Source of the DNA: Siphonodentalium dalli
Lineage: Eukaryota; Mollusca; Scaphopoda; Gadilida; Siphonodentaliidae
DNA: 64,000 nucleotides
Assembly (NCBI GenBank): GCA_032622095.1
Contig: CP136062.1
Span: 2,356,001-2,420,000 of the forward strand
Direction: 5' to 3'
The position numbers and the translations under genes were made by a program. The notes below the pieces were generated by a model. That model worked only from the letters and a program-made list of their open reading frames with translations. It was not told where the DNA came from and made no database searches. This document shows positions 1-55,313 of the stretch, one piece after another. Each line of letters begins with the position of its first letter. Within the stretch, counting starts at the first letter, position 1.

Positions 1-199
1 GTTATATATTTCTTATTGTTAAATAATGAATATTATTAAGGTCATTACTATTAGTACAGTAATGCCCTAATTAATCGACTCCTTATCAAACAGTTAAATA
101 TTTCTTATTGTTAAATAATGAATATTATTAAGGTCATTACTATTAGTACAGTAATGCCCTAATTAATGGTTAAGGAGTCGATTAATTAGGGCATTACTG
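1..199. repeat. Family A remnant inside a 92-bp tandem duplication
   Basis: Bases 1-75 and 93-167 are near-identical, a period of 92. Each copy contains flank sequence plus the left end CAGTAATGCCCTAATTAAT. Only the second copy (149-199) goes on to a right arm and closes with GGGCATTACTG followed by TA. The duplication therefore took in both flank and element arm. Confidence 0.8.
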
Positions 200-744
200 T
201 AGTGAGTAGCATATTTTATCCTAGTCCAAGTTTCCTTAGACGTAAACCAGGTAATGAAATCAGTTGGGATAATGTTTTACGTCAAAGCCCTGTGAAAATG
301 TATTTCTATAGCAGATGATCCAATGGCCGGATTTTTTGTCAGTTTTAATAAATTTTACCCTGCAAATCAATGCATGATGCTATTTACATCGGAAAGATGT
401 TAAATTTTGCATAGAATATGCTGCATACTTACGAGTAACAACACTTTGTTTACATTTAATTCACACCATCACTTCACAAGGTCAAATGAGTTTGTATTTA
501 TGTAAACAATGTGATAAAATATATTTTTCACTTTACTTTACTGCTTTCAGTTGACAACTCTTGTGGAGATCAGAACAAATATAATATTTTCTATGGAATA
601 AACAATGGTGACATTTTAGTAAAGTTATTGGAGATTTAAGGTGAGTGAACCAACAACGCTATACCCTGATTTAGAAAGACATATACACAGAACTTCAACA
701 TAAAACAGCATTATTCAACCCAACCTATTTAACTAGTGGGTCTG

Positions 745-899
745 CAGTAATGCCCTAAACAATCGACTCCTTAACCACAGCAGAATTCCGGGTAATTTTT
801 CAGGATTTAGTTGGAAATATGGCTTGTTCAAACTAAATCCCGAAAATTTTACCCATAATTCTGCTGTGGTTAAGGAGTCAATTATTTAGGGCATTACTG
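745..899. mobile_element. Family A palindromic MITE (Tc1/mariner-pogo type)
   Basis: The left arm CAGTAATGCCCTAA... and right arm ...TTAGGGCATTACTG are complementary over about 70 bases, with a shortened centre. TA follows on the right; the left flank is TG, a probable mutated TA. There is no coding capacity. Confidence 0.85.
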
Positions 900-946
900 T
901 ATGTCGAAGAATACTTGGCCACATTTTTGCCCTTGATTATGATCAA

Positions 947-1020
947 TTAACTCTTCCATGACTGGAGCTTCCTGAAATTTTATGAAAACTCTGTGCCAAT
1001 GCATTCTCTTATATATTGAA
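947..1020 (-). mobile_element. Family D end fragment (TTAA element)
   Basis: TTAA at 947-950 is followed by a copy of the family D right end in reverse (CATGACTGGAGCTTCCTGAA), then the start of the shared hairpin cassette (GCCAATGCATTCTCTTATAT). The rest is missing. Confidence 0.7.
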
Positions 1021-1214
1021 AATTTTGACTTAAGAGAAATAACCAAGCTTGCCATTTCACTACCAGTAATCCTATGCTGCTATATAATATTGTGTAATTG
1101 TAATGCTGCCGTTGATTGGGTATTAATTGAATTAAAGGGGTACTCTATGCTAAATCCAGCCATTTATGAGACCATCTCCTTTTATACTCAACAGAATATA
1201 TGCAACAAATGAAT

Positions 1215-1402
1215 GAATTTGAGCCATAGATTAGTGCAAAATACACTTGTGTGTTTGATGAATGATTGAAACAACCTGGATATTTTTATGAAACTAAATT
1301 TATGACTTGAGCCATAAATTCATTTTCATTATAATTACCATGCTCTTTGTATCATTGATAGAGCACATGAGTGTATTTTGCACAAATACATGGCTCAAAT
1401 TC
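1215..1402. repeat. Fold-back element with 32-bp arms
   Basis: Arms at 1215-1246 (GAATTTGAGCCAT...GCAAAATACAC) and 1371-1402 are inverted repeats of each other. A diverged relative of the left flank and left arm lies at 27060-27130, so this is a dispersed family. Confidence 0.65.
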
Positions 1403-1510
1403 CTTCACTTTTGGTCATTGAGAAATAACAGCAATAATTTTTGCGACATGCGTCATAACCAGCAAAGACCATTATCTGTAGGAGTGTCACCAAAATTTTG
1501 CCCAATTTTG

Positions 1511-1722
1511 GACCAATCAAATGGCGTCTTAGGTTAAGTAGATAAAATATTATCAGCTGGAGCAATCAAATGGTATCTTAGATTGAGTGGATCAAATATT
1601 ATCAGCTGGACCAATTAAATGGCATCTTAGGATTATAGTGGATTAAATATTATCAGCTGGTACAATCAAATGGCATCTTAGATTTAGTGCATCAATTATT
1701 ATCAGCTGGACCAATCAAATTG
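1511..1722. repeat. Minisatellite, about 50-bp unit, 4 copies
   Basis: Units begin at 1511, 1560, 1609, 1660 and (partial) 1709 with ACCAATCAAATGG-like starts and end with ATTATCAGCTGG. The units differ by several bases, so the array is not recent. Confidence 0.85.
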
Positions 1723-1853
1723 TAGTATATGTTGAACTGATTTATTGCTCAATTAGGTGTTTGTAATGCTTGGAATTCTTTCAAAAGTTGTTTGTTTTCG
1801 CACGATCTTCACTTGGATTTAAAAATAAACGGTAACATACTGTACTGCCCTAA

Positions 1854-2196: not shown

Positions 2197-2212
2197 TTCA
2201 GTTAGACTTTAA

Positions 2213-2668: not shown

Positions 2669-2921
2669 TTAAACACGGTTATAAACCGCAAGACAACCAG
2701 AGGATTGTGTGGTTAACATGCGTGTAATCAATCAACTCATATGAAACTGTAACATCCAGCAAACTTATATATCATAGAAATGAAACAGTCAGCAGTTACC
2801 GTGGCTACAGTGTATCAGCAGTCAAGGAATATAACCAGCGTTTCATTACTGCATTTCATCTCGGTGCCGCAGCAGTCACAGAACTGTAAACTGCAGTGCA
2901 GTTAAGGTTTTACTGCAGTTA

Positions 2922-3135: not shown

Positions 3136-3141
3136 TAATGT

Positions 3142-3931: not shown

Positions 3932-4650
3932 ACTGAGTTAAATCTAGACCAAGTCTGCTCGGTCCACAACAGCTTGGGATATCCATCGGGTTGATGCTGT
4001 AACAGCTTGGGATATCTGTTGGGTTGATGCTGTAACAGCTTGGGATATCCGTTGGGTTGAAGCTGTTATTTGACCGAGTCCTGCCCTGTTGCTCTTCTAT
4101 AATGGACTGTCATTCAAAAGATGTACAGTAATGCTCTAATTAATTGACCTCTTAACCACAGCAGAATTATGGGTAACTTTTCAGGATTTAGTCGGAAATA
4201 TGGCTTGTTGCCATTCATCGGACAGCTCGCGATTAAACTGTCTTCAAAATGATATATCATTTATTGTGATAGAAAAAGGTAAAGTGATGATACGATCGTT
4301 TAATGTATTGTTTACATGAATTTTCTGATAGTGCAACAAAAAATAAAAATTCATTGAAAATCAAGACTTCGTTTACTTATAAATCTCGTTGCTTTGACAT
4401 TTAATGGACAACAGATATATGCACGTTTGATACCATCATGCTTGGGAAAGGTTGCCCTCTATGTTCATATACGCAAAGCTTCCATTTGATCTAATCCGAA
4501 GACATACAAGCAAGATCAATCCTGCCAATGATTCTGGGCATAAAGTCTGTTATAGAAGAGTAACGGGATGGGACTCGGACCAAAAACAGCATTAACCCAA
4601 CAGATATCACAAGCTGTTGTGGATCAAGCAAACTTCGTCTAAGTTCAATC
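3932..4650. mobile_element. Element P with long inverted ends and an inserted family A arm
   Basis: The left end (about 3932-4000) and right end (4590-4650) are inverted repeats sharing the TCCACAACAGCTTG block. The left end carries three 33-bp tandem units from 3968. A single family A left arm interrupts it at 4126-4232. No coding frame was seen in the rest. Confidence 0.6.
4126..4232 (+). mobile_element. Family A single left arm
   Basis: TA then CAGTAATGCTCTAATTAAT through GGCTTGTTGCCATTCATCGG. The right arm is absent. Confidence 0.8.
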
Positions 4651-5215: not shown

Positions 5216-5310
5216 GCCTCACTATCAGACCCGAGTCAAATAATTAAGATAAAGCTTATATTCAGCATTGAGTCAATTGACAATGAAGTATCAATGTTTG
5301 TTGATGAATA

Positions 5311-5521
5311 CAGTAATTCTTTAAGTAATCGACTTCCTAACCACAGCAGAATTATGGGTAAGTTTTCAGGATTTAATCGGAAATATGGCTTGTTGCCATT
5401 CATCGGAAAGCTCTCCCTGAGAGCTTTCCGATGAATGGCAACAAGCCATATTTCCGACTAAATCCTGAAAACTTACCCATAATTCTGCTGGGATTAAGGA
5501 GTCGATTACTTAGAGCATTTT
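5311..5521. mobile_element. Family A MITE between perfect 23-bp direct repeats
   Basis: A full palindrome. The 23 bases immediately before it (5288-5310, starting GTATCAATGTTTG) are repeated exactly right after it (5522-5544). Tc1/mariner elements normally duplicate only TA. Confidence 0.9.
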
Positions 5522-5789
5522 GTATCAATGTTTGTTGATGAATAGTATAGTATTCTCTGAGTAAGAAACTAACGTAATGGCACATATAAGGCGTTCCATC
5601 TCCTCATGCTGAAAATGCTGCTGTCTTCCGTCTTTTCTTGCTGAAAAAAATCTAGAAAACAAAGCTTTCAATCTTACATAAAATGAGCGGAATATTCAAA
5701 ACAACAATGTTTCAATAATGAACTGAGGTATTTAACATTCATGTTACAGTTGATTTTGAGAGGGAAATATTGTTCATCAGTTTGTTAGC

Positions 5790-6366: not shown

Positions 6367-6509
6367 TATTAATGGTGAAATTTTATGGCTTTGGGCCATA
6401 ATTTCAAATATGTTTCTTCTGCCCACTCGCTACCACACAATGAAAAGTGTCAAACCAACCAAAAGGTTACCCAAAGTAATTAATTACAATTACTTACATA
6501 AAGTAATTA

Positions 6510-6569
6510 CAGTAATGCTCTAAATAATCGACTCCTTAATTAAGGAGTCGATTATTTAGAGCATTACTG
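6510..6569. mobile_element. Minimal 60-bp family A palindrome
   Basis: CAGTAATGCTCTAAATAATC followed directly by its complement, flanked by TA on both sides, with no internal sequence at all. It sits inside a TAATTACAATTAC-type simple repeat (about 6459-6650). Confidence 0.9.
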
Positions 6570-7460
6570 TACAATTACAATTACCCAAAGTAATTAATTA
6601 CAATTACTTACACAAAGTAAGAAATTATAATTACTTACTGTCAATAGCTTTATATGTGGCATGTCTGATACTGACAAAATTCCGACTGAAATTAGCTGCC
6701 AAAATAGAAAATTTTAAACAATTGGTAGAGAATGGGCAAATTATGATGTTACTAATACTGGTCTCATCGATTGTTTCATGAGCAAATATTTGTGAATGTG
6801 ATTCATACAAGTACGGTTAGGACAAATTAGTTTATTTTTCTGCTTTATGTTTTTTTTGGACCTTGTTTGGGTCGGGTCGGTTGGGAAAAAAATAAAAATA
6901 AAGGAACGTCATTCCTATCTGAGAACAAACTTTGTAGACTCTATCATGTTATTATAAAGATCACCATAACTTCTGAGGAATACCAAATGTATTTCTAAAG
7001 ACCATTCTAAGTTTTAAAGTTTAAAGAGGTATGACTATGTCAAGTTCATAAAAATGTCAGGACTTCACAGCTTTCATCCTAGATGTAGTTAAAAATAATG
7101 CTTTGGTGGTACGGTAATAAATGCCAGAGAAAAACAATTAGGAATCATTTTAATTTTCTCGTCGGGGCCACAGAGAACCCAGTCAACGGATCCGTAAAGC
7201 AGAAAAATAAAAAAGTTTGGCCTTAGTGACACCTAGATCTTACGAGTCATACAACTCTCCAAAGTTTCCGAGCTGATACCATTGAACTAACTTGTCCAGA
7301 TCCAGGTGTTAACTCTGTCAAATACGATCTCTGAACTCTCTCGTTGATGTCCACATCTGATTATTGTACTTGATTCAAAGCTTGGGCTAACAAGCTGATG
7401 ACCAATGAGAATTGTGTGATGAAAACACGATCATTCCGTGCAATCTTTAGTTCACTGCCC

Positions 7461-8713: not shown

Positions 8714-8739
8714 CTGAAAAGATAAGGATAATAATATTT

Positions 8740-14190: not shown

Positions 14191-14200
14191 TCCATGTATT

Positions 14201-17326: not shown

Positions 17327-19090
17327 ATTGAGACCAATTATCGCTGGATCCTCTTGTCCCACTAACAGACTCAGTAATTTCTTGGACATAATCATGAAAC
17401 CATTATGTGAAAAAATACCAAGCTACATAAGAGATGATATGGATTTTGTCAGAGAATTGCCAGAAAGAACTGAAGAAGGGTCAACACTTGTGAGTTTTGA
17501 TGTAGTTGGTCTCTACTTAAATATTCCACATGATTTAGGAATAAAAGCAGTAGAATACTGGATCGAAAAACATTGCGATATGATCGACAAGAGATTCAGT
17601 TCTGACTTCATCGTACAAAGTTTGCGTATTATATTGGAGAACAATAAGTTCTTCTTCAATGACAAATACTACCTACAAATAAAAGGAACTGCCATGGGCA
17701 CAAAAGTGGCCCCTAAATTTGCAAACCTTCTTATGGGCTTCCTAGAAAATTAACTATATACAAGAGCGGAAAACATCTTCAAATTGTCAATAAGTACACA
17801 TATTCGAACATCTTGGAGGAGATACCTTGACGATTGTTTTGTAATATGGATTGATTCAATGGACAGTCTCAACGAATTCCATGTGTTACTCAATTCTCTG
17901 GACAAATCTATTCAGTTCACGAAGGATGCAAGCAAGGAGGGACTCCCATTCCTAGATGTTCTTATAATTCTAAATAACACGAAAATTGAAACTGACATAT
18001 ATTATAAACCTACCGATGCACACCAATATATGGATTTCCGCTCTTGCCACCCGTCGCACACCAAGAGAAATATTCCATATAGTCTTGCTAGACGTGTGTG
18101 CATGATCGTCAGTAATGCAGAAAAGAGACTTTTGAGACTAAAGGAATTAGAGTCATTCTTATCGAAACAACATTATCCAAAAGGTTTGATTACAAATGGG
18201 ATTCAGAGAGCCCAACTCATTCCAGAAAATGAATTACGGACTGCCAAACAGAAGTCCTCAGAAACTAACATTATTCCTTTTGTGACAACACATAATCCAC
18301 ATTGTCACTTTAATATATCTGCAAAAGCCCAAGAATTACTACCAATTCTTCATACCAGTAATAAAATGCGATCTTTGGTGACCAAAGCGGACATTTTACC
18401 CAGCAAGCTTCAACGAAGGAACCTAAAACGCATGCTCACTGGTGCTAAATAAACGACAAACAGATCTAAGGAATATAAAGTCAACAAATGTGGCGATTCC
18501 AGATGTAAAGTGTGCCAGCACAGCATAGAAGGAAATACTATTACCCTTAAAAACGGTATGAAGATATACACCAATGCCGATATGACGTGCAAGACAGTAA
18601 ATCTGATATACTGTATAATGTGTGATGGATGTGGAGAAAGCTATATTGGGGAAACTGGCAATAGTGTGGTTGAGCGTATGCGAATCCACCGACAGCATAT
18701 TAAGCAGCCATAATACAGGAAGATTCCATTGAGTGCCCATCTGGACGATTGTGGCAGAAAGAGTTTCCACGTCTTCCTGTTCTGCAAGATGTACAAGAGC
18801 AAAATACATCGCAAGATTCGGGAAGATTTCTTCAAAATCCTGTTCAAAGCAAAACTAAATGCTGACTAATGACGTAATAGCCGGAAGTGCATGGGAGAGT
18901 TATCTCTCTTGCGTCTATTACGTACGACAATAACAGTCTACTTAAGAGTGCAATGATACTAAGCACGAAAGGCCTCTAGACTTACAAATGTATTAAATGA
19001 TCGTTTTATAAGTCATGTCTCCATTCTTTTGGATCATATATACAACTCTACGCTCAAGTACTATATAAACGGTTATATATATACATGTAC
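17327..19090 (+). mobile_element. Penelope-like element fossil (reverse transcriptase plus GIY-YIG endonuclease), 5'-truncated
   Basis: Parts in order: a reverse transcriptase region (about 17327-18450) with the catalytic YLDD motif; a cysteine-rich linker (CGDSRCKVC, near 18490); and a GIY-YIG nuclease region (near 18600-18710, with SYIGETGN). The coding part ends near 18870 and a non-coding tail may run to about 19090. This domain order is specific to endonuclease-bearing Penelope-like elements. The copy lacks its 5' part and is broken by a small number of changes (about three). The long readable stretches suggest moderate age. The tail contains CGAAAGGCCTC, also found in the duplicated block at 20571-23494. 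Confidence 0.9.
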
Positions 19091-19093
19091 ATG

Positions 19094-20395
19094 TATACTA
19101 GCCGATGAGCCCGACGTTGTCCGGGCTATTCAAAAACCAAATTTCAAGTCGATAGCTCCACCCGTTTCCGAGATCTCGTCTGCGCATGCGCTGCACGGGC
19201 GTCGCACGGGCTCGCCAATACGACAACGACGACCGCCTGGTCAAACTACACACACGTACCAAGTTTCGTCCCGATCGGTCGAGAATCGTAGATTTGTATA
19301 AATGACATACATACAGACAGACAGACAGACAGACAGAGGTCTTCAAAATATATATGAGACTAGCCGATGAGCCCGACGTTGTCCGGGCTATTCAAAAACC
19401 AAATTTCAAGTCGATAGCTCCACCCGTTTCCGAGATCTGGTCTGCGCATGCACGAAGCTTGTGTCGCACGGGCTCGGCGACCCGATAAAAATCGTATCCG
19501 GGGCAAGATACATTCACATAGCAAATTTCAAGTCGATAGCTCCACCCGTTTCCGAGATCTCGTCTGCGCATGCGCTGCACGGGCGTCACACAGGCTCGCC
19601 AATACGACAAGGACGACCGCCTGGTCAAACTACACACACGTACCAAGTTTCGTCCCGATCGGTCGAAACGACAGCACAACACGTATTTTTTGTTTTTCAT
19701 GATTTAATTCATGGTACCCGTCCCTCAAAGACTGACCCGATGAAAATTCCCCTGTTCCTAGGACATATATGACACAACAACCCATTCTGCCTTTTTAATC
19801 GAGATAATTGCATTCCGCGTTTCGTTTTGCATCCGTATTTTACGCATGGGTAGCCGTTTAGCAGCTTCGATTGTAATAAAGAGCGTTAATCCTTAACACC
19901 TCCGAATATGGTCAATATAAAGATCGTTGATGCCTTAACCCCTGAAGTGGCGTTTGCAGTGATTTTGATGATTGGGAGTGGAGAATCGGTGCTCAGAGCT
20001 TGTCCAAAATGCGGCGTCGACAATCCCTGTGGGTTTTTACACTTATATACGATCGGTCAACCCGTTTTCGATTCTATAAAGGACATACAGACAGACAGAC
20101 AGAGGTCTTCAAAATATATATGAGACTAGATTCGTATCCGGGGCAAGACACATTCACATAGCAAATTTCAAGTCGATAGCTCCACCCGTTTCCGAGATCT
20201 CGTCTGCGCATGAGCGAAGCGGGCGCCGCACAGACTCGCCAATACGACAAGGACGACCGCCTGGTCAAACTACACACACGTACATGTACCAAGTTTCGTC
20301 CCGATCGGTAGAGAATCGTAGATTTGTATAAATGACATACAGACAGACAGACAAACAGAGGTCTTCAAAATATATAAGAGATATATATATGGATG
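19094..20395. repeat. Family I repeats, three head-to-tail copies, GC-rich
   Basis: Units start near AGCCCGACGTTGTCCGGGCT (19107, 19370) and carry CAAATTTCAAGTCGATAGCT, GTCTGCGCATGCGC and CCAAGTTTCGTCCCGATCGG. They end with (CAGA)n and GGTCTTCAAAATATATATGA. Copies: about 19094-19360, 19361-19673 (with an inserted partial copy from 19496), and about 20040-20395. They are clearly richer in GC than the surroundings. Open frames here on both strands are by-products of low stop density. Confidence 0.8.
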
Positions 20396-20570
20396 ATTCC
20401 ATTAAGTAAACATCTTGATGTGGGGATGGATCCTTCCGAATTTCCCCATACACAAAATGATGGAAGTCAACACGTTCAAACGGTTACAGATGGAACAAAA
20501 GTTTCGGAACAAATTAAATCTGAAACTAAACTCTATCATATAATCGCGATGTCACACACCCACCTCCCGG

Positions 20571-20691
20571 AAGTGACGTCACAATAGAAATAATTGAAAT
20601 AATAAAATGGCATTAACCTGATGATCGGCCAAAAGCCGTGAAAGGCCTCGTTATACAGCCAAAAATTGTGTTTATGTTTATTAACATCTTA

Positions 20692-20726
<35 letters not shown>

Positions 20727-22037
20727 GAATAAAATAAAGTAACACCATTTAAGACTCATTTGAGTTTAAAAAAACACGAGCTTTCGGCTATCTAGTAGCC
20801 TTTATCAAGTATGAAGTGAACAAATAGTGAAAAGTCGTTGACGTTGAAAGTGTCCCTCACGATGACGTGCATAACAAGAGTCTTGTTATGCACGTCATCG
20901 TGTGGGACACTTTCAACGTCAACGACTTTTCACTATTTGTTCACTAAATTCGATTTGAGGCGAGGTTTACCGAGGCTCAAATAGAATTTAGTGGACGAGG
21001 TTGATAAATTATGTATAAAATAGAACGAGTTTGAGATACTTTTTATCACATGGTCATACAATCGCTTAAATTTTATCGAAAACAACAATAATTAACAGAC
21101 AGAGAACTTTGTCCCAAAGAGCAGCGTGACGTCATTGCACGCGACGATATTACACGTGTCTATTACGCTCGAATATTACATAGTGCTAAGTGTGATAAAT
21201 ATATATATCAGAAAATGGATGTTTATATCCATGTTATAAATCTTCAATGACCAAAATTATAGTTGCAGCCATTTTGTCATGAGGTTAAAATTAAGATAGT
21301 CCTCATTATCTCGCTGTCTGTTAACTACTTGGTATTCAACAATCTATTTTCGTTGTTTGCATACTACATGTTGTACTGGCTACAATAAGACAATAAAACA
21401 TTGGCAGCTCTCAGTTAAAAAAAAAGGCTGACAGAATATAGCCATTTGCCTTACTTCAGCCGATAGCCAACACTGAAGGGCTGAAAAAATACTTTCCTTT
21501 AGGTTTATACTCTTGGGATCCAAATAATCATCTTGAACGAATATGTCAACTATAATTATTGTTTTTTGAATTAAAAGACTGATATTGATATTTATTACAT
21601 GATCCTACCCATATTCCATTCAAACCCATTCTATAAATTGTGACAAGCATGTTCGTTGCATAATAGGAAATAGTGCCAGGTGGCTTTTGACTTCCAGTTT
21701 GTCATCTGTTTGCATTACATACGCTACGTCTCAAAATACTATGGCTTCCAATATTTTTTCGACAAACTCTAAAGAATGAAGAGTTTGAAAAGTTATTTCA
21801 TTAAATATGTCAGTCTTTATTTATCTGGGACTATTTCTTGACACGTTTGTTGAGTTGAATACGGGATTCCAGCAATTGCAGCCAAACTCATCCGGCAAAC
21901 CTCAAAAGTCTTCATCCCATATATACTGCCATAGGTCAGGAGTCCAGCTTTATACAATTCAAATGGCAGATTTCAGTAAAATACAGAGATCGATGAAGTT
22001 TGACGACTATGAAAGTTCGAAAGCACATAAGTGACAT
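20571..22037 (+). repeat. 1.46-kb tandem duplication, first copy
   Basis: Nearly identical to 22038-23494, differing in (TA)n length (20695-20724) and at a few single bases (for example GCAGCCATTTT against GCAGCAATTTT). It contains a 130-bp near-perfect hairpin at 20817-20946, the phrase CTGATGATCGGCCAAAAGCC and a small open frame (21807-22034). Possibly a Penelope-type tail, because GAAAGGCCTC is shared with 18968-18990. A diverged relative lies in reverse at 55795-56105. Confidence 0.9.
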
Positions 22038-23494
22038 AAGTGACGTCACAATAGAAATAATTGAAATAATAAAATGGCATTAACCTGATGATCGGCCAAA
22101 AGCCGTGAAAGGCCTCGTTATACAGCCAAAAATTGTGTTTATGTTTATTAACATCTTACCTATATATATATATATATATATATATATGGGAATAAAATAA
22201 AGTAACACCATTTAAGACTCATTTGAGTTTAAAAAAACACGAGCTTTCGGCTATCTAGTAGCCTTTATCAAGTATGAAGTGAACAAATAGTGAAAAGTCG
22301 TTGACGTTGAAAGTGTCCCTCACGATGACGTGCATAACAAGAGTCTTGTTATGCACGTCATCGTGTGGGACACTTTCAACGTCAACGACTTTTCACTATT
22401 TGTTCACTAAATTCGATTTGAGGCGAGGTTTACCGAGGCTCAAATAGAATTTAGTGGACGAGGTTGATAAATTATGTATAAAATAGAACGAGTTTGAGAT
22501 ACTTTTTATCACATGGTCATACAATCGCTTAAATTTTATCGAAAACAACAATAATTAACAGACAGAGAACTTTGTCCCAAAGAGCAGCGTGACGTCATTG
22601 CACGCGACGATATTACACGTGTCTATTACGCTCGAATATTACATAGTGCTAAGTGTGATAAATATATATATCAGAAAATGGATGTTTATATCCATGTTAT
22701 AAATCTTCAATGACCAAAATTATAGTTGCAGCAATTTTGTCATGAGGTTAAAATTAAGATAGTCCTCATTATCTCGCTGTCTGTTAACTACTTGGTATTC
22801 AACAATCTATTTTCGTTGTTTGCATACTACATGTTGTACTGGCTACAATAAGACAATAAAACATTGGCAGCTCTCAGTTAAAAAAAAAGGCTGACAGAAT
22901 ATAGCCATTTGCCTTACTTCAGCCGATAGCCAACACTGAAGGGCTGAAAAAATACTTTCCTTTAGGTTTATACTCTTGGGATCCAAATAATCATCTTGAA
23001 CGAATATGTCAACTATAATTATTGTTTTTTGAATTAAAAGACTGATATTGATATTTATTACATGATCCTACCCATATTCCATTCAAACCCATTCTATAAA
23101 TTGTGACAAGCATGTTCGTTGCATAATAGGAAATAGTGCCAGGTGGCTTTTGACTTCCAGTTTGTCATCTGTTTGCATTACATACGCTACGTCTCAAAAT
23201 ACTATGGCTTCCAATATTTTTTCGACAAACTCTAAAGAATGAAGAGTTTGAAAAGTTATTTCATTAAATATGTCAGTCTTTATTTATCTGGGACTATTTC
23301 TTGACACGTTTGTTGAGTTGAATACGGGATTCCAGCAATTGCAGCCAAACTCATCCGGCAAACCTCAAAAGTCTTCATCCCATATATACTGCCATAGGTC
23401 AGGAGTCCAGCTTTATACAATTCAAATGGCAGATTTCAGTAAAATACAGAGATCGATGAAGTTTGACGACTATGAAAGTTCGAAAGCACATAAG
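22038..23494 (+). repeat. 1.46-kb tandem duplication, second copy
   Basis: Starts at the repeated AAGTGACGTCACAAT; homology to the first copy ends near 23494 at CACATAAG. It has the same hairpin, a shorter (TA)n and the same small frame. High identity means recent duplication or an assembly duplication. Confidence 0.9.
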
Positions 23495-27798: not shown

Positions 27799-28599
27799 CC
27801 CTTTCATGACTGGCGCTTCCTAAAATTTTGCGAAAACCCTCCCATTTATAAGAAAATTCAATGGCCTAACAATATCTACCTTGACCTTGTAAGCCAGTTC
27901 ATTCTCTTATATTTGCATATATTTGTTTGGAAAAATCTATAAGGAGTTCAAAACTCACTCAAACTTATTTAACATTAGGGATACCTAAATCTCTCACCAG
28001 GCACCTGAATGCAATGAGGGTCAGTGCTCATAATTTAGCCACAGAAAAGGAAACAGAAACACTATCTCAAAGAACTTGCTCACTATGTCTTCAATTAGAA
28101 GACGAAGAAAAAAAATTCCTTTTCTGTATGAAGAATATTAACCAAAGAAATAATTTATTTGCAAAACTCAATCAACAAGTTGAACCAAAAACTTTACAAC
28201 AAGGATCAAAAGAATCTTTCAATAATTTTCGAGGTCTTCTTAGCCCAGACACAGCTCGCGAAACAAAATTGATATGTGAAATTATTTCATGTTCTCTAGA
28301 CTGACAGGGTCCTCCACAGATGTTTCACCTATTATAGTCAATTATAGTCACCAAATATATGATTTCTTTCTCAGATGTATATTGTATATATATTATGTTA
28401 CGACAGACACCATTGTTTTATGGTTTGTTTTAATAAATCTTATAAGAGAATACACTGGCTTATAAAGTCAAGGTAAATACTGTCAGGCCAGTGCATTCTC
28501 TTATATATGAGGCTCCCTATGGGTGACTCGCATATATAAGAGAATGCACTTGCATAGGATCTTTAATGCTGCACCAGCTCAGCTTCCATCATGAAAGGG
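27799..28599. mobile_element. Family D element with a LINE tail inserted in its hairpin
   Basis: Starts CCCTTTCATGACTGG after the shared TTAA and ends CATCATGAAAGGG before TTAA (28600-28603). The first hairpin cassette is split by LINE-derived DNA; the second is complete at about 28487-28553. Confidence 0.85.
27915..28438 (+). mobile_element. LINE 3' end: C-terminus of a non-LTR retrotransposon ORF2 and 3'UTR
   Basis: The frame to 28304 ends in a typical ORF2 C-terminus: MRVSAHNLATEKETETLSQR followed by CSLC, EDEEKKFLFC and QRNNLF. This resembles the R-x-S-x-H-N-L, C-x2-C, E-D-E, F-L-x2-C pattern of many LINEs. Only about 125 codons remain. The 3' region ends near AATAAATCTTATAAG without a long A-tract. 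Heavy 5' truncation is normal for LINE insertions. Family not assigned. Confidence 0.75.
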
Positions 28600-28732
28600 T
28601 TAACTCTGCCCTGTATTGTTTTTAACACCCCTGAATTTACTATTTCTTCAGCTTCGGGGTGAGAAATATTTTGAATTCCATATATGGTGATGCCAGGTTC
28701 GAATTCGAAATGTAAACAAACATCTTATTTAA

Positions 28733-29028
28733 TTTGTAACGGTGATCCCTATGGTAGATATTAGTATTGCTAACTAGTTTTGACCATGACATGTATGAAA
28801 CATTGACTCTAAAATGGCAAATTCTCATAACGCAATAGATGTTATTGAGAGCATTCCGATGAATGGTAACAAGCCATATTTCCGACTAAATCCTGAAAAA
28901 TTACCCATAATTCTGCTGTGGTTGAGGAGTCGATTATTTAGGGCATTACTGTATTTCATGTGTAATGGTGATCCATATGGTAGATATTATTAGAACATGC
29001 TGCTAATTAGTTTTCACCATTACATATA
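28733..29028. mobile_element. Family A right arm between diverged direct repeats
   Basis: The arm occupies 28847-28951 and ends GGGCATTACTG plus TA. Flanks 28733-28797 and 28959-29028 are related (GGTGATCC..TATGGTAGATATTA, then CTAA..TAGTTTT..ACCAT). The left arm of the element is missing. Confidence 0.7.
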
Positions 29029-29339
29029 TACAAGAAAACTAAGATGCATGCATCAGGTCGGCCGTGAACTATCTACCATAGAATTGTTGTAGCTATCGAT
29101 TATACATTTTGGAACACCTGTCTGTATGTATGTGTGTATGCATGAATGCATGTGTGTATGTGTTATAGACTCTAACACTGCTCGACTGATCCGACTCGGA
29201 TTTGGTATTTAACGTGTCAACTTGACCTCGCTCATAGGCATGTTTCTGGACCTTGACCGATCCGACTAAAAATTTGTGTGTAGGACTACTTCGATCCCGG
29301 GAGCAATATTGACGGGTCCAATTTCACGTGGGACCATGT

Positions 29340-34543: not shown

Positions 34544-34673
34544 GTGTTTGGCTAATCTGAGCGATTTGAGCAACGACAAATGTATAAAACTTCTAGAACA
34601 TATATATTTTTTAATATTTTAATAACGTTGGTGCTGGTGTTTACAAAACACAAGGAATAGTCATCTCAAATAA

Positions 34674-35383: not shown

Positions 35384-35832
35384 TTAAGGCCGGTTTACAA
35401 CAACCAACACAGCCATCATTTATATTATCCACGATATAAATGTTTTTGAATGTTTTATACACATAATGGCTTTTCCTTGATTTTGTTCAGATCACCAAAA
35501 CGCCGCAAAAATGACAACTTTAGAAGAAAAAAAAAGGTACAATTTTTAACAGCATCACTTTGCCCTACCAGCATCATAGCAAATAAGCAGGACCCCCAGC
35601 ATCATAGAACATTAGCAGGTCCACTTAACCGGTGGTGACTATGCTATAGAGAAAAGATGACAGTATGGAAATCAAATTGATCAAATGGTAATTTGTATAA
35701 AACTTGTAACATTCTGACTGACATAACACTTGATTCCTCTCCGATGCTTAATAATGTTACACTTCAACATATACTAGTATTCCTTCTGACGTTACGATAC
35801 TGCGGTTTAATTGTCATCAAAGTCAGCATACA

Positions 35833-35970: not shown

Positions 35971-36187
35971 GTTTGAATCAAATGAATTTCAGTTGAATTC
36001 TTTTATTTGGGGTCAACTTGCAACATTTCATGCAGCCGTTGTCATTATATTTTTTAGATATCTAACGGGCAATTAATTGAACACATCGGTATATAAAAAT
36101 ATTATAACAAAGGCTACATGAATCGTTGCAAGTTGACCCAAAATCAAGATAAATCTTACAGCTGCCTTACAAAAATCCACGCAACTA

Positions 36188-36400
36188 CAGTAATGCTCTA
36201 AGTAATCGACTTCTTAACCACAGCAGAATTATGGGTAACTTTTCAGGATTAAGTCGAAAATATGGCTTGTTGCCATTCATCGGAAAGCTCTCCTCGAGAG
36301 CATTCCGATGAATGGCAACAAGCCATATTTCCGACTAAATCCTGAAAAGTTACCCATAATTCTGCTGTGGTTAAGATGTCAATTACATAGAGCATTACTG
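36188..36400. mobile_element. Family A MITE, full length
   Basis: 213 bp, TA on both sides, with CTC-type ends (GCTCTAA / TAGAGC) in both arms. Confidence 0.92.
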
Positions 36401-37034
36401 TATTATGAAAATATTACCAAATATCAATATTCATAGATGCTGCTTACACATAACGGTCTTGATTTGAATTGTTCTGATTTGCCAAAGACTTTGTAAATCA
36501 CAAGGTGCGAAGAATAGCGGTACTTTTTCTAACAGCATTTGTGCATAATTCAGCTACCAACTGGCAACTTTAGTCTTATGTTAATAGTGTTAAAGCACAG
36601 GCCTCAGGGAAAAATTCCAAATATACTAATAAATACCATATGGGAGACACTTAAGGCACACAAGTCAGATTTTTGCAAAAACACAACATCTATCAAACTC
36701 CAATCCTAGAACTTGCAAATTCCTGGTATGATGTGCCGACTTCGCTTCGATTGATGTCATCAATATATATCAAACAAAAGGAAAATTTATAGCCTATAAG
36801 ATACACTTTTGGATATTTTGACCAACTTTTAGAATTAATGAGGTTATTTACATGGATGCCCAAGTCGATGACCAATTTCCTCCCTCCCAAATTGACGGTA
36901 GATTTTTGAAGTTTTTAGTATGATATCTCAAAAACATTTCCTTTTATTCAGAAAATTTTATGGCCAATAAAACTTTCAGTGAGATCACAAATTTGGTGAG
37001 TTTATGAGGGATATGGTAGTTGGTGTGTTTTTTA

Positions 37035-37444
37035 CAAGCCTGTAAATAGTGCGTCTGACATTTGAAGAATGAGATCCCCAGAAGGTGGATTTATTGACGC
37101 TATCGCACTCAGGGGAACCTCATTCTGCTTAGGCCTCAACTGCTATGGGAGACATAGGATCAGATTGAAGTTCCCCAGTTGAAGTCGTAATATGCACCCA
37201 TAATAGTCACCATGATTGTGCAATTTTTGTTCTGCAAATTATGGGATATATAAACAGACCAGAATGGAAAAAGTAACTAAAACAGATACATACATGTAGA
37301 TACATCCTCGAAGATGAGGCCTAAGCAGAATGAGGTCCCCAGAGGGTGAATATGGTGATGCTAGCCCACTTTGCGGGGTAGCATCACTAAATTCACCCTC
37401 TGGGGACCTCATTCTGTAAATGTCAGACAGTATTTACAGGCTTG
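37035..37444. mobile_element. Family B element (hAT-like)
   Basis: CAAGCCTGTAAATAGTG / TATTTACAGGCTTG ends. The right hairpin is well preserved and the left reduced. The immediate 8-mers do not match; longer direct repeats flank it instead. Confidence 0.85.
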
Positions 37445-37496
37445 GTGATATCTTGGGTGCGATGACAAATTTTGCGAGTTATTGAAGGATATGGTA

Positions 37497-37707
37497 CATG
37501 CCCTAAATAATCGACTCCTTAACCACAGCAGAATTATGGGTAATTTTTCAGGATTTAGTCGGGAAAATGTAGCATGTTGCCATTCAACAGAAAGTTCTCA
37601 CCGAGAGCTTTCCGATGAATGGCAACAAGTCATATTTCCGACTATATCCTGAAAAATTACCAAAAAATCTGCTGTGGTTAAGGAGTCGAATATTTAGGGC
37701 ATTACTG
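37497..37707. mobile_element. Family A MITE, left tip shortened
   Basis: The left tip reads CATGCCCTAA instead of CAGTAATGCCCTAA; the right tip GGGCATTACTG plus TA is normal. Confidence 0.88.
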
Positions 37708-38120
37708 TAGTTGGTGCATTTTTTTGCCAAAAACCTGACTTGTGAGCCTTGTTGTTCGTATTGTATATATTAGTATACTTGGAATTTTTCAGGGACCAGT
37801 GTGTTAAAGGTGGTTTGTAAACTAGTAAGGAAAGTAAGACTACAGGTAAAATACAACACTCTCTAACAAATAACTACATCAAAATCTAGACAATAAATAT
37901 GTTGTCAATGCAGCTAGGGCTGTAAAGATGTATAACCTCAAAATAAAATACCACTCGATACGCATCACGATACATTTTAATTTGGACTCTACGAGTTTAT
38001 TTTTCTCTTGAATCAAAGTTCAAATAAAATACGGCTATACAAATTTGAACTTGAATATTGTATTGAATATTGCAGACTCTGGCAATTATAAGATTTATTT
38101 TGTTTGGTGCGCCGTATGTT

Positions 38121-44538: not shown

Positions 44539-44633
44539 ACTGGATGCTCTATATACCAGTACTTTAATCGCTCAAAATTAGCAACGATGATTCTACCAAG
44601 CGCTTCATCATACTATATAATCATATCTTTGGA

Positions 44634-45126
44634 GAATCAGGGTTTGATTTTCGGAGAATCAGTGTTTTATTCGGAGATTCAGACAAATGATTATACATGT
44701 GGTATGTACTGTACAAGCCATGAAATAGTGTGCCTGTCATTTGCAGAATGAGGTCCCCAGAGGGTGAATTTAGTGATGCTACCCCGCATAGTGGGCTAGC
44801 ATCACCAAATTCACCCTCTGGGGACCTCATTCTGCTTACACCTCAGCAGAATGAGGTTCCCAGAGGGTGAATTTGGTGATGCTAGCATGCTATGCGGGGT
44901 AGCATCACTAATTTCACCCTCTGGGGACCTCATTCTGCAAATAGCAGACACCCTATTTCAAGGCCTGGTGTTGTACACTTAAAAATCCAATAATCAAAGT
45001 AATATCTTTCTGAACTCTTTAAATTCATCTTTCTTTATAGACACTGGAATAAAATTATCTGAAAAAATCTTCAGATAATCAGCGTTTGATTTTCGGAGAA
45101 TCAGTGGTTTATTCGGAGAATCAGAT
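44634..45126. repeat. Direct repeats around a family B element
   Basis: TTTGATTTTCGGAGAATCAG with TTTATTCGGAGA occurs at 44634-44692 and 45071-45126, on either side of the B element at 44714-44967. Confidence 0.75.
44714..44967. mobile_element. Family B element (hAT-like)
   Basis: CAAGCCATGAAATAGTG to TATTTCAAGGCCTG with two adjacent hairpins. Flanking 8-mers GTACTGTA and GTGTTGTA match at six of eight. Confidence 0.9.
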
Positions 45127-45264: not shown

Positions 45265-45815
45265 CTCTTTCATGATGGGAGCTGCGCTGGTGCAGCATTA
45301 AAGATCTGTGCCAGTGCATTCTCTTATATATGCGAGTCTCCCTGTCAGTACGATTTTTAATTTTGGAGAAAATTCCAAACGATCACTATTATTTAGACCT
45401 CTTCTGTGTCCATAACCCCCTGACATCTACCCACTGACCAATCAAATACACACCCAACCAACCTAGAGTATGAAAGGATTGGCAAAATCTGCATCTACCC
45501 ATGCCATCCTGGTCCTGATGAAGATAAACTGTTATAGAAAGTGCTTGACCATTTTTAATATATTCAAGTGATTTAGTACCTCCCTGGAGGATCATCCTCG
45601 CCTAATTTTCTCTACTATTATTTAGCATTGAGACATAGTGTGAAATTGTCATCACTATTATTAATTTCAGCCGAAATCCCTATTCATCACTATTATTATA
45701 CCATCATGATTATTAGGCACCTGAGAGTATGGGAGACTTACATATATAAGAGAAATTCTCAGAATGCATTGGCACAGGGTTTTCGCAAAATTTCAGAAAG
45801 CTCCAGTCATGGAGG
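45265..45815. mobile_element. Family D element interrupted in its hairpin region
   Basis: TTAA at 45261-45264 and 45816-45819. The left part is typical to about 45342 and the right part resumes at about 45734 (ATATATAAGAGAAATTC, then CAGGGTTTTCGCAAAATTTC). The insert of about 390 bp has no recognised identity. Confidence 0.75.
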
Positions 45816-46267
45816 TTAACAACAACACAGTGTCCAGGTTGCAGATCAACATATTACACAGAAGTGAGGCTGTTATTACCGGTAGTTATCTTCAAGCCTT
45901 GAAATAGTGTGCATGTCATTTGCAAAATGAGGTCCCCAGAGGGTGACTTTAGTGATGCTACCCCGCATAGTGGGCTAGCATCACCAATTCTCCTTCTGGG
46001 GACCTAATACTGCTTACACATCAGTCATGGAGGTTAAGAACAACACAGTGTCCAGGTTGCAGATAGATCAACATATTACACAGAAGTGTGGCTGTTATTA
46101 GTTATCTTCAAGCCTTGAAATAGTGTGCATGTCATTTGCAAAATGAGGTCCCCAGAGGGTGAATTTAGTGATGCTACCCCGCATAGCGGGTTAGCATCAC
46201 TAAATTCACCCTCTGGGAACCTCATTCTGCAAATGACAGACACAATATTTCAAGGCTTAGTTATCTT
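45805..46267. mobile_element. Family B element in a 218-bp tandem duplication of flank plus left arm
   Basis: Bases from 45805 (AGTCATGGAGG) repeat from 46023. Each copy runs through flank into the B left end (CAAG at 45893 and 46109). Only the second copy finishes the element (46109-46259). GTTATCTT at 46101-46108 and 46260-46267 is a perfect 8-bp target duplication. Confidence 0.88.
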
Positions 46268-50240: not shown

Positions 50241-50289
50241 CATATTGAGGAGGTTTAGATTGCCGATGTACATGTAGACAAATAATGTA

Positions 50290-52239
50290 CAGTAATGCCC
50301 TAAATAATCGACTTCTTAACCACAGCAGAATTATGGGTACCGTACCGGCTGGTGGATAAATCGCATCGTTGGATAAGTCGCATTGAATTTTGAAGCTTAA
50401 AAGGTTGCCTTTTGGCTCTTTCTGTTGTATACGTCGCACCTATTTCAGTGGCTTGTAAGGGAACATCAAAATGACAGATTGACCTGGATTTAGAGTTATT
50501 TAGAGCAGAGGAAGCATTTTTTAAAAATCTATTTATCACAGACGTCAAAATGAACGAATATTCCACCAATGCTTCCGGTATTCCCAATGTGATTTGGGGG
50601 AATTCCCAAGCAGGGGAGATAACATTGGTTCATTTTCATTAGGAGTGTGTGGGAACATGGATTATAAAACTTATTATTTTGACTTGAAAGATGTTTGGAC
50701 TAACTCTGGGTGGTTGAGAGTAAAATCAATGTATTAATTAACATTTATTCATCATCATTTCAACTTGTATAACATGTGTATAACTAAATATAAATAAAAC
50801 AGAAACATTTGACTTCACTTTCACAATATCATGCACAATCACTCATCACCGTCTTCACTGTCTGCCTCCATATACAATTTCCACCACTCAGCGTGCGACA
50901 AATTATCGTCAAAAACATCACAAAAACCTTTCGGATCATCATAAACATCATCATCTTCATCATCATCATCACTCACACCGTTATCATCACCACACTCTAT
51001 ATCAACATTCTCGCTAACTTTCGCATCCTTTTCCAACACATATTTACTATACAGTTCGTCATCCTCGGTACCATGCATCCATAGCATTCGAAATACAACA
51101 CTTTTTGAAAGATTTCACAATAAGTTCAGTGTCTAATTCGTCCCATGACTGCTTCACCCATTTTGCCACTAACGGTAAGTCAGGTCGTTTAAGGTTTCCT
51201 GCTTTAGTGAATACTTTGTCTTTTTCATCGCACATCCACTCAGTCTATTTATTCCTGATTGCATTCTTGAATGGCTTATTTAAACATACATCCAACGGCT
51301 GTAGTATGGAGGTCATGCCTCCTGGAATAAACGCAACATTTGTCCTTCTTCGATTACACTCGTCTTTCACACTTTCTTTTATGTGGGCGCTAAAGCTATC
51401 AAACACCAACAATGATCTCTCTTTCATCAATCCACCAGGCCTACAAATCCACACACTGTCCAACCACGCAAACATCTGTTTTTTGTCCACCCAACCTTTT
51501 TCTTGCATACGAATATTCACACCGGGCGGGAATTTCTCTTTGGGCATTGTTTTCCTCTTGAAAATCAACGTAGGTTTTAGCTTTGTCCCATCTGCCATGC
51601 ACGCGAGAACAACTGTGAAGTGAGATTTCTCGTGACCCGTTGTTTTGATTTGTACAGTTCTCTCACCTAACTTGTTGACAGTTCTGTCTGGCGGCATGTC
51701 GAAGTACATCGGAACTTCGTCCATACTCCCTATTTGTGATAGTTTATAGTTGTTTGTTTTCCTTTCCTTGATGACAAACTTTTGAAAGCTATAGTTTGTC
51801 TTCATAGTCCTTTGGCATTTTTTGTGATATTCTCGTTTTTTGTCACAGTGAAAGTCCTTTCCTTTTCATAAAACACGAAACCCAACTTGATGCACGTTTG
51901 AAGTCAGAGATCTCTCGCTAACTCGATGGCGCGCAAACGAATTCCGTTTCGTGAAACTGGCAGGAGTTGAGCACGTCTTTCTTCAAACCACGTTAGGAGA
52001 ACATTCTCAAGTTCAGGCCAGAATGCAGCTTTGCCGCGATTTGCTCGTTTGTCTCTACGCATGGCAAAAATCATATCTTTCTTTTTGTGCGAGTCCCTGA
52101 TTATTTTCTTGCTAACACCAAACTCTCGTTCTGTGAAAGCTTCCCGATGAATGGCAACAAGCCATATTTCCGACTAAATCCTGAAAAATTACCCATAATT
52201 CTGCTGTGGTTAAGGAGTCGATTATTTAGGGCATTACTG
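50290..52239. mobile_element. Family A element containing a pogo/Tigger-type transposon remnant
   Basis: The left family A end (50290-50336, to TTATGGG) and a whole right arm (about 52140-52239) are both flanked outside by TA. Between them lie TACCGTACCGGCTGGTGGAT with tandem GGATAAATCGCAT/GGATAAGTCGCAT words (50337-50386) and a decayed transposase on the minus strand. Either a pogo element jumped into the TA of GGGTA in a MITE and one side was then lost, or this is a coding relative of the MITEs. The rest of the MITE left arm is missing. Confidence 0.8.
50839..52136 (-). pseudogene. Pogo/Tigger (Tc1/mariner superfamily) DDE transposase, decayed
   Basis: Minus strand, N to C: a pogo-type helix-turn-helix (REFGVSKKIIRDSHKKKDMI, about 52127-52068), a CENP-B-like second HTH (FWPELENVLLTWFEERRAQL), then the catalytic core in a 186-codon frame (51805-51245). 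The core has Asp29 in SMDEVPMYFD, Asp136 in LLVFDSFSAH and Asp172 in SILQPLDV, a DD35D arrangement typical of pogo. Frame-disrupting changes include a TAG right after the core (NAIRNK, 51247-51245), a stop in the N-terminal part (after ELARDL), and a frame change before the acidic C-terminal tail (DDDDEDDD, 50839-51087). The N-terminus ends abruptly at the family A arm. Confidence 0.92.
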
Positions 52240-52322
52240 TACTCAATCTTCAGATTTGTCTTTTATTCCCCCAAAAAAGCTAGTTGTAGTTTTGAAATCG
52301 GGTTTAGTGGTTTCCATGCATA

Positions 52323-52473
52323 CAGTAATGCTCTAAGTAATCGACTCTTTAACTACAGCAGAATTATGAGTAACTTTTCAAGATTTAGTCGGAAATATGG
52401 CTTTTGCCATTCATCAGGGAGAGCTTTCCGACTAAATCCTGAAAAGTTACCTACAATTCTGCTGTGGTTAAGG
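52323..52473. mobile_element. Family A MITE, right tip missing
   Basis: CAGTAATGCTCTAAGTAATC at the left after TA. The right arm stops at GGTTAAGGA, where the DIRS-like element begins. Confidence 0.85.
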
Positions 52474-53163
52474 AAATAAGATCTTCTATCCACGATTAAA
52501 TAAACTTCTGGCATTTACCGTTTTACCATTCGGATTGTCCTTGGCTCCGCGAGTTTTTACGAAAATATTTAAGCCTATATATGCTCATTTACGATCATGT
52601 GGAATCCAGTCTTTTTATTATATCGACGATTCATTAATAGCTCATAGCAAAGAATCAACTTGTTTAGAAAACACACAACATTTGATTCATATCTTGCAGG
52701 AATTAGGTTTCTGCATTAATTGGGAAAAATCAATGCTTCAACCCACACAGTCAATTAAACATTTGGGATTTACTATTGACTCTCATGCATTCAAGGTTTT
52801 TTTGCCCAGTGCGAAAATCCAACGTATCATTGACCAATCCAAGAAATCTGCACGCAACCGCAAGCCCAATATTAGAGAAACTGCCAAGTTGATTGGCTAC
52901 TATAACGCTGCGTCAAGAGTGATAAATCTGTCAATTTCATTACTGGTACCTTGATCGTGACAAAAATGGAGCGCTAATATTATGTAATCATGATTGTGAT
53001 TGTTCCATGTCCCTCTCTTCCGATGGTAATTGCGGAAGTGACATGGTGGATAGATAATATTATTATAATGAATTGTCACCCTATATGCTTCGAGAAAATA
53101 TCAGCTGACAACTCACGCTTCCTTGCAAGGTTGGGGAGCCACTAACGAAATCATGTCCATTAA

Positions 53164-53486
53164 CCCTTTACCCAACAAACCGGCCAAAACCGGCCAAATA
53201 AAGCTTCAACAGCCTAAAATATCTTCGGTCTGTCTCAATAGAACCATACAAATATGGATATCATTGGAACCGGCTCCTTGACCACATTGTGATAGTTACA
53301 GTTATGCCCTGTGCCAATGCATTCTCTTATATATGCGAGTCAACCATAGGTCGCCTCGCATATATAAGAGAATGCATTGGCACATATATAAGCCAATGCA
53401 TTCTCTTATATATGCGAGGCGACCTATGGTTGACTCGCATATATAAGAGAATGCATTGGCACAGGGCCCTTCTGTTGGGTAAAGGG
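53164..53486. mobile_element. Family C element inserted in the DIRS fossil
   Basis: TTAA at 53160-53163; ends CCCTTTACCCAACA / TGTTGGGTAAAGGG followed by GTAA. The two hairpin cassettes are almost back to back because the spacer is deleted. Confidence 0.9.
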
Positions 53487-55123
53487 TAAATGGTCGTTAG
53501 TCGTAGGTTGACAGTTCTCGTCATATAAATTATCTTGATCACAGACAACACAACAGCAGTTGCCTACATGTACATCAATAATTCCAGAGGCCCATCATTG
53601 GCGCTTCAGCGTTTGAGTAACTAAATTCATCTCTGTGCTCTAGACAGAAACATACATGAATTTTTTGTCAATATGGAATGGCAACTTGATACTAACATTT
53701 TTGACAATTTTTTTTTTTTTACAAATACGACCTTGGCACCCAGACGTTGATTTGTTTGCAACCTATTTGAATAATCAACTGCCACAGTTTTATTCTTGGG
53801 ATTTCAATGCTAAGGCTATCGGCACTGATGCATTTTAATCAAACATGGAACATCCATAAACCTGATCTCTTTCCACCTTTCAAAATGATTATGCGGTCTC
53901 TGCAAAAGATTCAAGATGACCAGGTAGATATACATGTAGCACTGCTAGTAGTACCATGGTGGCCAACACAGCCATGGTTTCTAGTTTTACTGAATTATGC
54001 ATGGCAGACCTGCTTCTTTTACCTCCCAGCACAACGCTGTTACAAATGCCACTGTTGAGCAGATTCACCCCCTGCTACCCAAGATGCGGTTACTCGCTTG
54101 CATGATATCAGGCAGAGATGTGAAACATCAGAGCACTATGTCAATTACATCATTGACTCATGGAAACCATGGCAGCTACCAATAGACATTATGGGTTGGC
54201 TTGGAAGCAGAGGAATTTGCGGTGTGCTGCACAATCTTGCGATTCCATTCACACGATTGAGACTTCCACAGCCAATTATTTGGCACATCAAGGAAAATCT
54301 TAGTGTCATTAATATCCATAACAGGGGGAAAAAAAAATTCCTAACTCCCCTCTGGTAGTGCGCCTTATGAAAGGTATTTTTCTATCCAATTAACCACCTA
54401 AACCCAGATACAATGGGTTTTGGAATGTGTCACTTTTGCTGACAAAATGTAAATCGATGACACCGCATAATAGTCTAACATTACACCAATTGACTCTAAA
54501 TTTAGTCAGTTTATTGGCACTCACTATACAACACAACGATCTCAGACATTAGCTCATATTCATATTCATCATCTCCAATGGACTTTGGATGGAATGCTTT
54601 GTCATATTCCGCATCATTTGAAAACATCACGGCCGTCAAACCCGCAAAATGCATTGGATTTACGGTTCTTTCCTGACAAAAACTTGTGTGTAGTGATGAC
54701 ACTAAAAGATTACCTTGACCGCATGCAAGATTTACGGAAAGACATATACCTTCTCATATCTGGTAAAACTGTGCGGACAATTTAATCTGCAACAGTATCT
54801 CGGTGGATACTTTCTATGATGACCGATGCTGGTGTTAACACAGCTTTATTCAAAGCACATTCCATTTGAAGGGCAGCAACTTCCACTGCATTGAACAGTG
54901 GTGTGTCCCTGCAGACTATTCTAAAAACCATTAATTGGACATCAGCTGCAACTTTTTATACATTCTATTACAGATCAGAACTGGAGAAACTGGAGGATGG
55001 TTCAAAGTTTGCTTCAGCAGTTCTTATTGGTACTTCTAGGTCGGATCAGTGATGGTGTCCCGACTGTCAGAGGATTGGTTGTCTTCAACACTGTTGTTTA
55101 CGGAACACGCAACGTGACTTTAT

Positions 55124-55313
55124 AAGTTTCAGTTTTGTATACTATCTATACAGTAATGCTCTTGGGAAGTTTCAGTTTTGTATACTATCTATACAGTAAT
55201 GCTCTTGGGAAGAGCTTTCCGATGAATGGCAACAAGCCATATTTCCGACTAAATCCTGAAAAGTTACTCATAATTCTGTTGTGTTTAAGGAGCGATTAAT
55301 TAGAGCATTACTG
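55124..55313. mobile_element. Family A element with a 43-bp tandem duplication of flank plus left tip
   Basis: 55124-55166 and 55167-55209 are identical 43-mers containing 27 bp of flank and CAGTAATGCTCTTGGG. The right arm then follows to GAGCATTACTG. The left arm is cut to its tip. Confidence 0.9.

Follow-up and report, generated by a model that had tools for sequence, protein, structure and literature searches.

The question raised by this 64,000-bp stretch of the Siphonodentalium dalli genome (C2:2356001-2420000, hereafter the window; the genome comprises 2.2 Gb in nine contigs) is whether fold-back elements give rise to the direct duplications encountered in their flanks. The original prediction had named eight places at which a fold-back element sits in or beside a local direct repeat, a coincidence that it held to be too frequent for chance and ascribed to replication stalling at hairpins with template switching or to repair of hairpin-associated breaks. 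All eight repeat pairs exist in the window (82–100% identity), and in three of them (1-199, 45804 and 55124) the repeat unit contains flank and left arm, as had been stated. Overall, we favour with some reserve a mixed origin, in which a subset of the eight cases are scars of hairpin-linked repair or miscopying and the others are repeats that were there before.

Searches with pieces of the window revealed a colinear, inverted second copy of the region at C2:159196501-159261500, about 157 Mb away, with a mismatch of 0.53% over 48.6 kb of aligned pieces (at least 700 bp and at least 97%; one stretch counted twice). This second copy may be a misplaced allele in the assembly or a recent segmental duplicate; the sequence upstream of window position 1 is the same in both copies.

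Three fold-back families recur in the window. Family A begins TACAGTAATGC, has arms of ~107 bp around a 3-bp loop and occupies 19 window intervals; family B (beginning GCAGAATGAGGTCCCC) occupies 19 and family C (beginning GCCAATGCATTCTC) 14. De novo detection yielded 29 fold-backs, and merging these with the family matches gave 54 intervals. A near-complete A element (36186-36402; arms of 107 bp, 3-bp loop) served as the family A query. Folded as DNA, the family A element forms one long hairpin (-109.5 kcal/mol, z -27, none of 200 shuffles being as good). Exact matches across the genome number 95,979 for the outer end of this ~217-bp element and 17,323 for its intact centre. Its short length, high copy number and long inverted arms are those of a palindromic miniature inverted-repeat transposable element (MITE), presumably of the Tc1/mariner type; a TA target duplication was seen at one site only (36960), where the element lies between GGTA and TAGTTGG and the left repeat unit represents the matching empty site. 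The C-containing element, which we take to be a piggyBac-type MITE, is flanked by TTAA on both sides at one site, a second-copy insertion inside an A element at window position 52349, where TTAA is single in the window.

The eight duplications case by case

At 55124-55313, an A element without most of its left arm is accompanied by an exact 43-bp tandem repeat, whose unit is made of flank and the left end of the element (55124-55166/55167-55209, 100%). The second copy carries an intact fold-back and no 43-bp duplication at this place, and direct comparison gives a before/after pair: the window has lost the left arm between GCTCT near the element base and GCTCT at the loop, a 5-bp repeat, and has gained the 43-bp repeat, joined at AAG.

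Four further elements are truncated and carry a neighbouring flank copy at the truncation (1-199, 1854, 5288 and 45804), with 3-4 common bases at the joints of the last three. At the very start of the window (1-201), a tandem repeat with a 92-bp period (1-75/93-167, 99%) comprises flank and the outer 21-31 bp of an A element; both arms are shortened in the second unit, which keeps only 21 bp of the left arm and ~35 bp of the right arm, and the structure is the same in the second copy. At 1854-2195, a C-type element ends after 2155; in place of the lost right side stand 44 bp copied from the left flank (1854-1897/2152-2195, 91%), with GAAA common to the joint. Its relatives L006 and L007 run on past GGGTGAAA into the right half, and it is there that the window switches to the flank copy; this case is also present in the second copy (93%). 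The A element at 5288-5544 lies between exact 23-bp repeats (5288-5310/5522-5544, 100%). A 23-bp flank copy seems to have taken the place of ~4 bp at its right end, the bases common to the joints being GTA and TA, and this case is likewise found in the second copy. Finally, at 45804-46258, flank and the left half of a B element are repeated with a period of 216-218 bp (45804-45846/46022-46064, 98%; a further stretch 45883-45987/46099-46203, 96%), with ~3 common bases (CAG) at the joint, again in both copies.

The remaining three cases are of a different kind. At 36966-37745, a B element lies between the two units of a repeat (36979-37018/37457-37496, 83%), and an A element (37498-37709) with its TA duplication sits in the right unit. 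The A element is missing from the left unit, which represents the empty site and matches the right unit, minus the element, in 60 of 75 aligned columns, one element base remaining in the joined unit; this repeat therefore appears to predate the element. The full B element at 44714-44967 stands between minisatellite-like units (feature 44607-45125; 44607-44683/45049-45125, 82%), of which 63 of 78 positions are identical. From their sequences, both cases look like insertions into or beside repeats already there. At 28726-29030, half an A element, consisting of one arm and ending at the loop, stands between two flank units (28726-28766/28952-28992, 88%; units identical at 65 of 77 positions). The possibility that these units represent a dispersed small terminal-inverted-repeat element found no support, since among the 40 scored of 307 candidate matches they occurred only here and in the second copy.

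Sorted by reading the sequences, which is partly a matter of judgement, the eight cases would thus comprise about five scars (55124, 1854, 5288, 45804 and 1-199), two older repeats and one unclear case (28733). Deletion, flank-templated insert and a few common bases at the joints were recognized together by reading in 55124, 1854 and 5288, the inserts being longer than typical. Seven of the eight duplications are common to both copies, only 55124 differing. Because they are present in both, these seven are older than the split of the copies, and chance assembly errors are unlikely.

Copy differences and hairpin tips

The comparison of the two copies covered 54,920 of the 64,000 window bases, the excluded region including the unchained part past 63448. 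We counted differences of at least 15 bp other than variable number tandem repeats (VNTRs), scored a difference as touching a fold-back when a breakpoint lay in or at most 20 bp from a fold-back interval, and derived expectations by shifting. Of 16 such differences, 11 touch fold-backs versus 3.7 expected (P = 0.0007, post hoc), and family A alone is touched by six versus 1.3 expected (P = 0.007). After removal of two plain insertions of other elements (28555 and 52349), the count is 9/14 versus 3.2 (P = 0.003). Five VNTR length differences (3233, 15173, 16804, 23683 and 31734) and the listed indels of 6-14 bp (2092, 46078, 52853 and 60892) were left out of the count; adding back the five VNTRs gives 11/21 versus 4.8 expected (P = 0.003).

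Several of these differences cut into the elements themselves. In an A element at 50288-52241, which is uninterrupted in the second copy, the window has ~1.79 kb (50340) in place of the inner part of the left arm as far as the loop. A 512-bp deletion begins in an A arm at 52475, and a 174-bp deletion removes a B palindrome at 57579. At 61002-61907 on the forward strand, two A elements follow each other in the same orientation in the window; the second copy of the region has one A there and lacks ~700 bp, and the difference at 60928-61710 looks, from its sequence, like an exchange between two A copies. The two copies carry the C-containing element with CCCTTTACCCAACA-type ends (window 53185-53487) in reverse orientation relative to each other and with another spacer; among the differences it counts as a C element whose interior is reversed. 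A 131-bp fold-back, whose arms are 98% matching, occurs twice within 20815-22408 (20815-20945 and 22278-22408, 1463 bp apart); the second copy is rearranged around it (18592-22433), its left flank appearing reversed on its right. At window 28555-28570, the second copy carries a 311-bp inserted element with ~16 bp of target duplicated, an identical stretch being found at window 35499-35809. Five differences lie away from fold-backs (5030, 31491, 53671, 54979 and 58588).

Duplications along family A were profiled genome-wide using exact 15-base probes, both strands summed, by counting same-orientation repeats 31-61 bp apart. The tip probe, located in the arm 12 bp from the loop, has such a tandem repeat at 897 of 87,519 occurrences (1.0%), as compared to 50 of at least 51,459 (at most 0.10%) for the mid-arm probe; the ratio of about ten is only approximate, because matches can overlap or share descent. 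Random 15-mers, low-complexity words excluded, gave 266/180,611 (0.15%, at 14 loci) in a random sample of the genome and 175/57,995 (0.30%) in the window. The 100 tip matches listed are all on C1 and show 30 different periods, which speaks against one amplified variant. On C1, at least 100 tip matches among ~10,900 compare with outer ends repeated at eight loci of ~11,900 (0.07%; estimated pro rata by the size of C1). Hence the tip region exceeds the mid-arm and random DNA, and on C1 it also clearly exceeds the outer end. At C1:6835511-6835689, a left arm and a right arm are followed, 38 bp on, by a further piece of right arm, a duplication that leaves the palindrome intact. No tip-probe direct repeats (at most two mismatches, 16-120 bp apart) were found in the window and the sequences L001-L044.

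Other fold-back structures of the window lie outside the eight cases. At 6467-6620, a 64-bp perfect mini-palindrome of family A is enclosed by 40-bp repeats (98%) within tandemly repeated flanking DNA and, judged by this flank, looks like an insertion into or beside a pre-existing repeat. Half an A element (arm positions 1-105; 4103-4252, forward strand) is bordered on either side by an imperfect repeat of its flank, identical in 22 of 24 aligned columns. Among the half-A elements of the window and the sample, 55124 left out, four of six end at the loop or at most ~5 bases from it, as judged by eye. Family A probes are linked across the loop at 34,646 of 87,519 occurrences versus 51,459 of 87,519 within the arm, a difference that may owe something to probe conservation and to longer relatives, which share the arms. 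A chimera at 59924-60100 (forward strand) joins the left half of A at its loop to the right half of B near the B loop. Loop-to-loop A-B chimeras do not form a common class, as the exact pattern occurs at only two sites genome-wide (C3:87427219 and C9:180425982), from which the window chimera itself deviates. A-type arm probes are also found in inverted order 1.7-4 kb apart at C1:734241-767422 and C1:5830935-5832604, some in a 14.6-kb series; these are possibly longer relatives of family A.

Chance, transposition and slippage

A number of results weigh against a hairpin-linked origin of the duplications, beginning with the frequency of flank repeats. We defined a local direct-repeat pair as two copies of at least 20 bp and at least 90% identity within 800 bp. 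The window holds 168 such pairs, 140 being left after removal of 28 that lie mostly inside elements, and 46% of window bases are within 300 bp of a copy of these 140 pairs. Because local repeats are so dense in this region, fold-backs must often adjoin one. Using circular shifts of the 54 fold-back intervals round the window as chance control, 26 of the 54 are near a repeat (at most 300 bp) versus 27.8 expected (P = 0.74), seven are spanned by a repeat pair versus 5.1 (P = 0.24) and six have a repeat overlapping their edge versus 7.9 (P = 0.83). When elements were excised and random points served as control for the junctions, a test giving figures without P value, 7/54 junctions in the window fell inside a repeat span against 7.4 expected, or 3.85 counting only two-copy repeats; for family A only, these values were 4/19 against 3.3, or 1.8. 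In a random sample of 20 stretches of 10 kb (200 kb), 3/39 junctions compare with 3.8 expected, and two with 1.9 for two-copy repeats. The 90% threshold drops two of the eight pairs (28733 and 36960), in data and controls alike, and these count neither for nor against. Two-copy repeats may be modestly enriched beside the window's fold-backs. However, the claim that the association is too frequent for chance did not survive comparison with random sites, which gave no clear excess in the window or in the random 200 kb; where a genome is dense in repeats, no cause should be inferred from direct repeats next to fold-backs until a control has been run, and the tempting inference is herewith corrected.

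On the same side stand several features of the other tests. The test of structural differences was devised after the differences had been seen, in one 55-kb region and with matches clustered in window 50-62 kb. It is weaker without the 20-bp margin (8/16 versus 3.0 expected, P = 0.011), as well as when the doubtful 46273 and the C inversion are additionally removed (7/12 versus 2.7, P = 0.009), and the 16 differences give no significant excess for B alone (2 versus 1.3, P = 0.37) or C alone (2 versus 1.1, P = 0.28). Only one of the eight cases differs between the copies, the rest except 36960 cannot be ordered in time, and the ordering of 36960 speaks for a prior repeat. Some of the direct repeats counted with the tip probe may represent arm pieces that have flipped, the one C1 place that was cross-checked holding three arm copies. 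Furthermore, the outer end of family A is repeated at 762 of 95,979 occurrences (0.79%), with a rate near that of the tip on the forward strand (662/48,260, versus 100/47,719 on the reverse strand). These counts are uneven because of at least one array: among the 100 outer-end matches listed, 11, at eight loci, are all of those on C1, whereas a single array from C2:10,890,603 accounts for the remaining 89. The array itself proceeds in 44-50-bp steps, with units that hold the 15-bp outer end of family A (at least 89 matches).

Coincidence, with elements having landed in or beside the repeats of a genome in which short tandem and local direct repeats abound, would account for a near-repeat rate equal to that of the shifted controls, for the empty-site unit at 36960 and for the minisatellite-like flanks at 44634 and 6467. 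It leaves unexplained the new joint inside the element at 55124 relative to the second copy, the flank copy at 1854 that begins where the element is cut, and the excess of the tip over the mid-arm; we regard it as a rather unlikely explanation for the cases as a whole. The duplications could also be products of transposition itself, either unusual long target duplications, with element ends joining TA sites ~20 bp apart, or excision sites that were repaired incorrectly. The 5288 repeat, which spans GTA to TA and directly abuts the element on both sides, would suit this explanation, and long target duplications do exist here, as illustrated by the 311-bp element in the second copy at 28555 (~16 bp target). 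In 55124, 1-199, 45804 and 1854, however, the breakpoint is inside the element and not at its ends, which renders a transpositional origin quite improbable.

A mechanism in which the hairpin has no role, namely simple slippage or unequal exchange at short repeats, is compatible with the 3-5 bp common at the joints, the apparent A-A exchange in the second copy (60928-61710), the VNTR differences elsewhere between the copies and the outer-end array on C2. Yet within one and the same family tandem duplication is ~10 times commoner near the tip than in the mid-arm, a contrast not expected from slippage without structure, and we consider this explanation highly improbable. For the subset of scars, we thus return to hairpin-linked repair or miscopying: the mechanism of the original prediction fits 55124 with its before/after pair, the truncations with flank copies and the tip excess, but not as a single cause for all eight cases, as 36960 and 44634 look older than their elements.

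A hairpin-linked model and its meaning

We propose a model in which a fold-back element would extrude a hairpin or cruciform, which might then break, being cut at its tip, or stall a replication fork. Repair or restarted synthesis would prime on a few common bases in the neighbouring flank, with the outcome that part of the fold-back is lost and a copy of the adjacent flank, sometimes together with the element end, is pasted at the joint. The hairpin would thus be the trigger, and the same order of events may apply to the cases other than 55124. Hairpin cutting or fork stalling followed by flank-primed synthesis would account both for the loss of an arm accompanied by a flank copy at the joint and for the excess at the tip. 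Short copies could be made by templated end joining of the polymerase-theta type, and copies of 43 bp and more by replication template switching, the process termed microhomology-mediated break-induced replication (MMBIR) or fork stalling and template switching (FoSTeS). The copy lengths observed (23-44, ~92 and 216 bp) fit the latter better than theta-mediated end joining (TMEJ) or synthesis-dependent microhomology-mediated end joining (SD-MMEJ).

This class of mechanism is known, and so is each of its steps from elsewhere, as passages of the following papers describe: palindromes break at their centre (PMC4255720), hairpins are opened and forks stall (PMC7999016), flank-templated insertions are primed by few bases (PMC7407515), and tandem arrays originate from fold-back elements or MITEs (PMC4079207, PMC12628747). 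In the literature searched, as far as listings and passages go, no genome-wide profile of duplications along a palindromic MITE was found.

To judge from the same passages, our cases resemble PATRR8 and PATRR22, the palindromic AT-rich repeats of recurrent human translocations (PMC4255720), in sequence loss and joins with minimal homology and possibly in breakage at the centre of symmetry; whereas symmetric centre deletions and two-locus translocations are described there, the element here is a dispersed mobile one, which loses one arm and is accompanied by direct copies of local sequence. With TMEJ and SD-MMEJ (PMC7407515), they share deletion together with an insertion copied from flanking DNA and primed by few common bases, but synthesis there amounts to 1-25 nt per step, in contrast to 23-44 bp in three of our cases and ~92 and 216 bp in two. 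Tetris of Drosophila virilis (PMC4079207) is likewise described as a fold-back element that gave rise to tandem repeats, and with them to satellites, but internal repeats of ~220 bp already exist in its arms, whereas the whole A element measures ~217 bp here. For MITE-derived satellites such as Xstir in Xenopus (as described in PMC12628747), a stem-loop and replication delay have similarly been proposed to give arrays, the stem-loop there forming between two neighbouring elements with the loop cut out, as opposed to single elements and their tips here.

Most of what is known of palindrome instability comes, to our knowledge, from engineered constructs and a small number of human loci. We tentatively suggest, as a possibility short of an even chance, that the tips of family A act as natural hairpin reporters, at which short tandem duplications arise at several times the genomic rate and from which some grow into minisatellites or satellite arrays. 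If true, fold-back MITEs would be a source of new tandem repeats. With 17,323 exactly intact centres in one genome, family A documents statistically at which points of a hairpin small duplications occur, and comparison of the window with its second copy supplies ancestral and derived states.

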